Assembly: GCA_027068485.1 (NCBI GenBank)
Contig: JAMOSB010000036.1
Coordinates: 1 to 55,699, forward strand
Source of the DNA: Sulfurovum sp.
Lineage (GTDB): Bacteria > Campylobacterota > Campylobacteria > Campylobacterales > Sulfurovaceae
DNA length: 55,699 bases
Direction: 5' to 3'
A program made the position numbers and the translations under genes. The number at the start of each line of letters is the position of its first letter. Positions within the stretch are counted from its first letter, which is position 1. Positions 40,618 through 42,329 of this stretch are shown piece by piece. The notes beneath the pieces were generated by a model, which was not told the origin of the DNA, did not search any database, and saw only the letters and a list, made by a program, of their open reading frames with translations.

Positions 40618-40644
40618 GAGTAGGTGAAACTCTCACGACTTCTT

Positions 40645-40653
40645 TGCTATAAT
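40645..40653 (+). promoter_or_regulatory. Extended -10 before the acyl-CoA-dehydrogenase-like gene (leaderless configuration)
   Basis: TGCTATAAT is followed by six bases (CTTGCT) and ATG 40660. No ribosome site precedes that ATG. An alternative GTG 40624 with TAGGAG upstream exists, so two start modes are possible. Confidence 0.55.
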
Positions 40654-40659
40654 CTTGCT

Positions 40660-41634
40660 ATGAGACTTCAAGACTATAAAACCAACCTAACCCACACCTT
40701 AAAGGCACTCGATGCCCTACCACACGCACCACTAGACAGTGATACTTCTGCACTCAAAGAGGCATTTGAGATCGCCTATGGGTATGGTCTGTTTGGTGTC
40801 TATAAGATAGATGATGGAGACCATCAAGCCCATGCACGCTTTGAACTCTTTGTCAAGTTGACACCCTACTCAGGGGCATTGGTCTTTTTGGGGATACAGA
40901 TACTCGCTGCCAATAGTATTATGCAACGCAACCACTTCCCCCGTAGTACCTACTACTTTGGTAAGCGGTGTGGTATCGCAATCAACCATCTGCGTGCCAA
41001 TCGGACAATTGTCTCGGCTACAGCATGCGAGGGGGGCTACTGTGTGAGTGGTAGACTCAGCTGGGCAAGTGGCTATGGGATATTTGACACTCTACTGGTG
41101 GGGTTTCACCATGAGGGGTATGAGTATATGGCGATGATGCCTTTTGAGGCGGGGGAGTCTATCAGGATTGGCAGTCCTGCACAGAGCTTTGCGGGTAATG
41201 CAATGGCGACGGTTGATATCGTGCTTGATGGACTCTTCATCCCCCAAGAGGATATCGTCGCCTATACTCCTATAGGGAGCTATACCCGTGCAAAGTCAAT
41301 CTCCAAGACGGTACATATCGCAATCTATAGTCTCGGTGTTGCAGCGATAGGGGCGTGTAGTGATAGCCAAGTTGCCCAAGAGGGACGCAAACGACTTGAG
41401 AGACTACGGGATAGATTTCTACTCAGTAGTGATGGGGAGGAGATGGATAGACTTCGTATTGAGCTGTTTGGGGTGGTGCAGGAGATTATCACCACCGCGA
41501 TGGTACTCTATGGGGGGCGATCGATACTGATACAAGAGCATCTCCAACGCTACTACCGTGAACTGATTATGTTTAATGCCAATGGACTCAACGCAACCAT
41601 CAAGGGGCTTTTTAAAGAGAGATTTTTATGCTAA
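40660..41634 (+). CDS. Acyl-CoA-dehydrogenase-fold flavoprotein (divergent)
   Basis: A 324-residue protein with the acyl-CoA dehydrogenase layout: an all-alpha N-terminal part, a beta domain with GYCVSGRLSWASGYGIFD near 125-142, and a C-terminal helical part. The last segment (LYGGRSILIQEHLQRYYREL) resembles the C-terminal motif of the superfamily and of group D flavin monooxygenases. I cannot place the catalytic glutamate, so chemistry is open. ATG 40660 is chosen for the -10 six bases upstream; GTG 40624 would add 12 residues. It is not in a fatty-acid-oxidation operon. Confidence 0.62.
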   Translation: MRLQDYKTNLTHTLKALDALPHAPLDSDTSALKEAFEIAYGYGLFGVYKIDDGDHQAHARFELFVKLTPYSGALVFLGIQILAANSIMQRNHFPRSTYYFGKRCGIAINHLRANRTIVSATACEGGYCVSGRLSWASGYGIFDTLLVGFHHEGYEYMAMMPFEAGESIRIGSPAQSFAGNAMATVDIVLDGLFIPQEDIVAYTPIGSYTRAKSISKTVHIAIYSLGVAAIGACSDSQVAQEGRKRLERLRDRFLLSSDGEEMDRLRIELFGVVQEIITTAMVLYGGRSILIQEHLQRYYRELIMFNANGLNATIKGLFKERFLC

Positions 41635-41669
41635 AATGTCCCCAATCTAAATCTAGTGAGGTTACCACT

Positions 41670-42329
41670 ATGGAGAAACGCGTACTGATCCTCTGTACAG
41701 GCAATAGCTGTCGCTCTATCATCGCAGAAGCACTTATCAATAGTGAGCTAGAGGGGGTAATCGCTCAAAGCTCAGGCGTGCAAGCCTCAGGATGCGTCAA
41801 CCCCAATGCAAAAAAACTCTTAGAGCAGGAGGGGATCTGGCGTGAGAGTTACCACTCTAAGAGTATCGATACGGTACTCCAAACCTCCTATGATCTCATC
41901 GTCACCGTCTGTGATCATGCCCACGAGAGCTGCCCGACTTTCCCCCACGCAACACGGACGATCCATGTAGGGTTTGAAGACCCCGATGGTAAAGCCTATG
42001 AGGCATTTGAAGCCACACTCCATGCGATTAGAGCTTCACTTCTTCCGCGTATCCAAAAGGAACTCATGACCATGAATAAAAATGTAGACAAAACCTCCAC
42101 AGGTGTCAAGATCTCCTTTACAGGAGTGGTAGCCAAACAAAATATCGTCAAGATGGTAGAGAACTGTGCCACGGGAGCGTGTGCGTGTATGTCTGATGAG
42201 ACCAAAGCCAAAATCACCAATATGGAAGTGAGTGGAGAGGATGGAGCCGTCGCCCTTGAACTCTCTGGAGATATCGCCATCGAAGAGATAGAGTCTGCAT
42301 TGGCAAACTCTACGGTACTTAATAACTAG
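41670..42329 (+). CDS. ArsC-type arsenate reductase fused to a Cys-rich C-terminal domain
   Basis: A 219-residue fusion. The N-terminal about 130 residues are a low-molecular-weight-phosphatase-fold arsenate reductase: P-loop C9-TGNSC-R15, redox cysteines Cys81 and Cys88 in CDHAHESCPTFP, and the HVGFEDP loop at 99-105. A roughly 80-residue extension (about 140-219) begins VKISFTGVVAKQNIVKM and carries Cys166, Cys171 and Cys173 in NCATGACAC; I do not recognise it. AGTGAGG precedes ATG 41670. An internal ATG at 42066 with AAAAGGA upstream could make the C-terminal domain alone. No other ars genes lie nearby. Confidence 0.72.
   Translation: MEKRVLILCTGNSCRSIIAEALINSELEGVIAQSSGVQASGCVNPNAKKLLEQEGIWRESYHSKSIDTVLQTSYDLIVTVCDHAHESCPTFPHATRTIHVGFEDPDGKAYEAFEATLHAIRASLLPRIQKELMTMNKNVDKTSTGVKISFTGVVAKQNIVKMVENCATGACACMSDETKAKITNMEVSGEDGAVALELSGDIAIEEIESALANSTVLNN

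Follow-up and report, generated by a model that had tools for sequence, protein, structure and literature searches.

An open reading frame of Sulfurovum sp. joins an arsenate reductase (ArsC) to a C-terminal cysteine-bearing domain, here called the tail, which by its sequence and predicted structure appears to be a new accessory family that no Pfam or NCBIfam model covers; the ars accessory and fusion proteins, to which it would belong, are a known kind of system. The gene lies in the window, the whole 55,699-nucleotide stretch of DNA that was analysed (contig JAMOSB010000036.1 of assembly GCA_027068485.1). The reading we favour, tentatively and with somewhat less than even confidence, is that the tail is a small trithiol As(III) acceptor or carrier domain, ArsD-like in action without being ArsD.

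The fusion gene and its ArsC domain

The features of the gene are collected in Table 1. The ATG at 41670 was preferred as the start over an in-frame ATG at 41628 because of the GAGG motif given there. The 336-aa protein encoded directly upstream (window 40624-41634) matched no Pfam family at E ≤ 0.001.

Table 1 Features of the ArsC-tail fusion gene in the window
Feature	Position	Strand	Remarks
ArsC-tail fusion gene	41670..42329	+	219 aa; start backed by GAGG at 41658-41661
Thioredoxin-type ArsC domain (LMWP fold), aa 1-127	41670..42050	+	Pfam PF01451, NCBIfam PRK13530, PDB chains
ArsC P-loop C9-x5-R15	41694..41714	+	C and R kept in 31/31 fused ORFs
ArsC redox pair C81 (41910-41912) and C88 (41931-41933)	41910..41933	+	Kept in 31/31 fused ORFs
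Tail domain, aa 132-219, predicted duplicated beta-beta-alpha	42063..42326	+	AlphaFold2 pLDDT 89; no known-domain match; relatives in family genomes
First beta-beta-alpha repeat, about aa 134-167	42069..42170	+	hhalign of halves
Cys triad C166 (42165-42167), C171 (42180-42182), C173 (42186-42188)	42165..42188	+	Invariant in 63/63
Second beta-beta-alpha repeat, about aa 182-213	42213..42308	+	hhalign of halves; AlphaFold2 model

A sequence-only reading of this DNA had described an ArsC with C9-x5-R15, Cys81 and Cys88 at the N-terminus, and this was borne out for residues 1-127. The Pfam model LMWPc matched residues 5-122 (E 1.8e-17), and in a PDB sequence search the top chain was a 'low molecular weight phosphatase family protein' (2.5e-17), with arsenate reductase chains next, from 5.7e-17. 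Two NCBIfam models of thioredoxin-type ArsC scored 82.1 bits (PRK13530; curated cut-off 215) and 77.9 bits (cut-off 174.3), and as both scores are below the curated cut-offs, the window's ArsC appears to be a divergent member. Judged by its C-x5-R P-loop and two further redox cysteines, of the C82/C89 type, the domain is an LMWP-fold, thioredoxin-type ArsC. The 31 fused ORFs in which these residues were checked include the window copy and were picked without the exact P-loop string; in one fusion (L107) a P-loop glycine is replaced by alanine. Arsenate reduction via these three cysteines is established for the thioredoxin-type ArsC family, and from the conserved residues the window's ArsC would be expected to reduce arsenate at Cys9, Cys81 and Cys88. 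Over its N-terminal 127 residues the protein thus resembles the pI258/B. subtilis family in P-loop, cysteines and LMWPc match, whereas its scores under the NCBIfam cut-offs and its extra 88-residue domain set it apart.

The tail domain

The cysteines of the tail form a C-x4-C-x-C motif and stand at the very positions, 166, 171 and 173, that had been named from the sequence. The loci read gave 72 usable copies of the tail, leaving out hits that were out of frame with stops, hits shorter than 60 aa and one copy with a broken frame (L128); after near-duplicate removal 62 remained, and with the window copy 63 were aligned. The conservation of the three cysteines, proposed earlier as a check, was complete: C35, C40 and C42 in tail numbering are invariant in 63/63, together with G14, K50 and G38, the last lying between the first two cysteines. 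The motif was also present in 72/72 copies kept and in 90/90 rows of the tail tree; the tree count is partly circular, 17 rows having been chosen by the motif itself, and the 63/63 count is free of this. On the evidence of the alignment, the conserved cysteines are not there by chance. The tail also looks to be under purifying selection, with dN of 0.19-0.28 against five relatives and dS of about 2.0 for two of them and 1.5 for a third; for the remaining two dS could not be computed.

AlphaFold2 modelled the full fusion with pLDDT 88 and pTM 0.69, and predicted for the tail a beta-beta-alpha unit, the Cys loop, a short helix and a second beta-beta-alpha unit, in this order. Aligned profile against profile (hhalign), the two halves gave 96.5% probability and a score of 40.5, compared to no more than 11.5 among 30 shuffles of the columns and 12.4 for the reversed control. 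Since the halves align so far above these controls, the tail is an internal duplication. In the predicted structure C166 is at the end of the first long helix, and C171 and C173 are in the loop preceding the short helix; the cysteines would thereby be found at the joint of the two repeats, where they could form a three-sulfur site.

The tail had been called unfamiliar, and neither profile nor structure searches assigned it to a known domain. Of the two outcomes set beforehand as refuting that reading, a match to a known common domain and unconserved cysteines, neither was observed. With the window tail, Pfam, NCBIfam and the PDB sequences gave no significant match, and when the 63 A1 members were compared with Pfam and NCBIfam, the matches listed, which for Pfam covered 25 of 34 families, were scattered and weak (best E 0.0017). 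The A1 profile matched no PDB sequence at E ≤ 10, and Foldseek found no match to the tail in the PDB at E ≤ 0.001. Eleven of the 63 members, not including the window tail, matched the BON domain (PF04972) at E ≤ 1, the lowest value being 0.0021. A gyrase domain was the best VIA match (Z 6.6, rmsd 3.1, 77 aligned); as this score is in the range graded by the tool as common arrangement, the match was set aside.

Distribution and subfamilies

Stand-alone and differently fused copies had been suggested as something to look for; both exist, mostly with ars genes, and 'unfamiliar' had been an understatement. The tail was found in 81 of the 175 genomes of the window's family and in 27 of 298 genomes of a phylum sample. 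Subfamily A, which includes the window copy, has the C-x4-C-x-C motif, while subfamily B has a fourth cysteine (C-x4-C-x-C-x-C) and accounts for 20 of the 90 tree rows, all of them stand-alone.

The only relative found beyond Campylobacterota was on plasmid p1 of Alicyclobacillus sp. SO9 (36% identity, E 2e-9), the one record with a tail relative among the 72,556 of a plasmid search. Viral contigs contained no tail relative by a pattern scan, and the tail was present in 0 of 39 genomes that had yielded other ArsC loci, a set with no positive control. One scan of wider genome contigs used patterns of the whole fusion and not of the tail alone. A lone candidate (E 8.9e-4) among 395 genomes of the phylum to which Desulfofustis (genome G485, with locus L042) belongs was dropped, being an FKBP-type isomerase by Pfam. 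The restriction of the tail to Campylobacterota and one Bacillota plasmid is provisional, because the search with the tail alone covered few other phyla.

Genomic context and fusions

ArsC was present in 78 of the 81 tail genomes, compared to 134 of the 175 family genomes overall (Fisher p 2e-9, uncorrected for kinship). Among subfamily A copies 61 of 74 lie at most 1 kb from ArsC on the same strand. For subfamily B the figure is 13 of 14 within 5 kb, the copies having been assigned by hand from low-identity places. Neighbours were counted in 76 loci around tail genes, 57 of subfamily A and 19 of B. Within 4.5 kb, the A loci contained ArsC (48), ArsR (40) and ArsB (34), and the B loci ArsC (18), an ArsP-type permease (17), a thioredoxin-like protein of the TIGR00412/ArsE type (17) and one that is DsbD-like (12). 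For 13 of the 74 A copies no ArsC was found within 5 kb on the same strand, some of these being at contig ends; the ArsC-less A copies of one genus lie among housekeeping genes, as judged by eye.

Several individual loci may be described here. A lone tail gene (L125:4479-5276), with no ArsC within 5 kb, directly precedes a methionine sulfoxide reductase gene (PF01625) on the same strand. In another genome (L087, G078), an ArsC-tail fusion of subfamily A and a stand-alone B-like tail are about 4 kb apart on the same contig. A gene cluster that recurs in L182-L185, in a different order in L185, comprises ArsC, an ArsP-type permease, tail B and TIGR00412/ArsE-type, DsbD-like and thioredoxin-like genes, and resembles the arsEFG clusters.

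Fused proteins make up 31 of the 90 tree rows: 24 are ArsC-tail, four ArsC-Fer2_BFD-tail (L095, L096, L108 and L172) and three permease-ArsC-Fer2_BFD-tail, the latter in three genomes (L116, L118 and L119, which leaves its contig within the tail). The domains of all seven longer fusions were confirmed by Pfam. The L116 permease, the only one of the three run against NCBIfam, matched the model of an SO_0444-type Cu/Zn exporter with 342 bits (cut-off 300). On the tail tree, which has few columns, the fused label changes 14 times, at least two of the changes being forced by starred branches, so ArsC and the tail were probably joined or split more than once. An assembly artefact or a chance stop read-through between arsC and the tail was rejected in view of the 31 fused rows from many genomes and a dN well below dS. 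One ArsC-tail fusion (L128, about 1290-1940, genome G007) has its frame broken within the tail, the C-terminal half lying in another frame.

In the ars operon of the Alicyclobacillus plasmid the order is arsD, two arsA-type genes, two others, arsR, an arsenic transporter, two arsC, trxB and the tail gene. The tail gene is thus the last in the operon, and its product, WP_198854271.1, is annotated as a hypothetical protein. Another part of this operon (L171:3118-4191) encodes one hypothetical and one FmdE-family protein, with no NCBIfam model at E ≤ 0.001.

The genome of the window

That no other ars gene is near the fusion had been noted before, and for the five families searched this holds in the whole assembly (98.4% complete): ArsB, ACR3, ArsP_1, MIP (aquaporin) and HTH_5/ArsR were not found. 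The HTH_5 (ArsR-family) model gave nothing in the 1.73 Mb genome and was positive in 14/14 control genomes. One ArsC of the thioredoxin type was found in the assembly. In the family the ArsB query was positive in 105 of 175 genomes, and 22 of the 81 tail genomes, several of them incomplete, were without a detected ArsB. The arsenate reductase genes of Mid-Cayman Rise Sulfurovum were tied by their authors to phosphate scavenging (PMC7159903). A pump-less arsenate reductase such as that of the window could fit this link.

Comparison with ArsD and other known systems

The tail resembles ArsD in having a short three-Cys loop, in being a small ars-operon protein and in having a C-terminal Cys pair in some copies (12 of 90 tail rows end in CC or CxC). 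The As(III) site of ArsD consists of Cys12, Cys13 and Cys18 (Lin, Yang and Rosen 2007, cited in PMC4562236), and C-terminal vicinal Cys pairs of ArsD are described in the citing paper (PMC4562236). A C-[AS]-T-G-x-C loop is present in 38 of 52 subfamily-A members and in 0 of 11 subfamily-B members, and the loop of the ArsD in the Alicyclobacillus operon, C-S-T-G-V-C, has the same spelling as that of subfamily A. However, the full spacings differ, Cys12-Cys13-x4-Cys18 in ArsD against C-x4-C-x-C in the tail, with the C-x4-C part alone common, and the tail has the predicted duplicated beta-beta-alpha fold. That the tail is itself an ArsD was rejected, as hhalign of A1 with one ArsD gave 0.7%. Since only the 12-column Cys loop was aligned, convergence seems likelier than kinship.

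ArsC fusions as such are already known: ArsR-ArsC, Acr3-ArsC, AqpS-ArsC and ArsN-ArsC are described in the accessible part of PMC6205960 and likewise join ArsC to another arsenic-handling part. Unlike these partners, the tail is a family that neither Pfam nor NCBIfam has a model for, and neither the ArsC-[2Fe-2S]-tail nor the permease-ArsC-[2Fe-2S]-tail arrangement is among the fusions described in that part of the paper. CopZ-type chaperones with an N-terminal BFD-like [2Fe-2S] domain (NF045877, NF047645) similarly combine a [2Fe-2S] and a small Cys domain in one chain. However, the matches to these models lie under their cut-offs (34 of 190 and 23 of 100 bits), the Cys domain had no HMA match among those listed, and the window's own fusion has no BFD domain. 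The open-access literature searched by keyword, including the accessible parts of PMC7159903, PMC4435449, PMC6205960, PMC4562236 and PMC9144182, showed neither the tail family, with its duplication and its linkage to ars genes, nor the four-part fusion.

Possible role of the tail

Arsenite binding, electron relay and metal sensing had all been offered as functions from the sequence. The evidence leans to the first, the second is a serious rival, and nothing specific was found for the third.

In the proposed carrier role, ArsC would reduce arsenate at its three cysteines and release As(III), which would be caught by Cys166, Cys171 and Cys173 of the tail. In relatives the As(III) would then be passed to an exporter of the same operon, i.e. 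ArsB, an ArsP-type permease or an aquaglyceroporin. Where no known exporter was found, as in the window's genome, the tail may serve as a buffer for As(III) or feed it into an unrecognised route. We infer the binding of As(III), its stoichiometry and the hand-off from several observations. The invariant cysteines are three and not two, and a glycine lies between the first and the second, which suggests a trithiol site; for As(III) generated by ArsC, such a trithiol, whether in one chain with ArsC or encoded next to it, would be the evident acceptor. The C-[AS]TG-x-C loop suggests by analogy to ArsD the same use. The linkage to ArsC, ArsB, ArsR and the ArsP-type permease, and the single chains of permease, ArsC, BFD and tail, also suggest a carrier. 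A carrier role seems otherwise unfilled near the tail genes, because one query for ArsA gave no hit in 79 tail loci (controls positive; ArsA-type genes are present in the Alicyclobacillus operon) and, of 188 loci, just three (L171, L013 and L020) were positive with one query for ArsD.

Several findings argue against a carrier. No pump was detected in the window's genome to receive the As(III), and fusion is far commoner to ArsC than to a permease (24 + 4 against 3 of the 31 fusions). The one fused permease that was classified is a Cu/Zn exporter by model, the Alicyclobacillus operon already has an ArsD, and subfamily B is without the [AS]TG spelling. The 13 A copies that have no same-strand ArsC within 5 kb, one of them beside methionine sulfoxide reductase, also fit poorly.

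The main rival, which we consider unlikely but serious, is that the tail is a built-in reductant. The CxC dithiol together with C166 would re-reduce the Cys81-Cys88 disulfide at each ArsC turnover, replacing or serving thioredoxin, and the BFD-like [2Fe-2S] domain, where present, would supply electrons. Such a role agrees with the presence of ArsC in all 31 fused rows and of Fer2_BFD between ArsC and tail in seven of them, and as it requires no pump it fits the window's genome. The methionine sulfoxide reductase gene adjoining the lone copy in L125 is consistent with it as well. The thioredoxin-like and DsbD-like genes that accompany subfamily B can be read in both directions: their company speaks for a reductant, yet thioredoxin-like genes already adjoin most B copies, and a TrxB gene precedes the Alicyclobacillus copy, which speaks against one. 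Poisoning of vicinal thiols by As(III) is established thiol chemistry, and a vicinal trithiol near the site where As(III) is made should be poisoned. In addition, three cysteines are invariant where two would do, and the tail had no thioredoxin family match among the Pfam and NCBIfam matches listed. Between a carrier and an intramolecular reductant we favour the carrier, although the data are indecisive.

It is also possible, though improbable, that the cysteines bind a structural metal or an Fe-S cluster, or sense metal, and that the domain is a scaffold linking ArsC to its operon partners. The C-x4-C-x-C motif, with the fourth cysteine of subfamily B, could ligate Zn or Fe, and the exporter type of the L116 permease would agree with this. 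On the other hand, no known DNA-binding or cluster domain was among the matches listed, and the duplicated fold was predicted confidently without a metal, a weak argument since AlphaFold2 ignores metals. A persulfide or sulfur relay, in which the CxC and rhodanese neighbours would thiolate arsenite in sulfide-rich habitats, is very improbable. The rhodanese-type genes seen in seven of the 76 loci (L114, L130, L133, L134, L136, L178 and L184) speak for it; against it, none was seen in the other 69, and no sulfur-carrier family was among the matches listed.

Returning to the arsenite carrier, a wider claim, of which we are rather doubtful, is that the tail is an independent arsenite-carrier class, built from a duplicated beta-beta-alpha unit, unrelated to ArsD and wired to arsenate reductase in Campylobacterota. 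Its fullest form would combine arsenate reduction, [2Fe-2S] electron relay, three-thiol As(III) capture and permease export in one polypeptide.

ArsB operons that are without ArsA and ArsD are not known to have a carrier for the As(III) made by ArsC. If the tail is such a carrier, or the private reductant of ArsC, a gap would be filled in a metalloid pathway that is among the best studied, and a family would be named whose one annotated record, from Alicyclobacillus, reads hypothetical. The natural fusions would provide ready constructs for studying the hand-off of product between reductase, carrier and pump.
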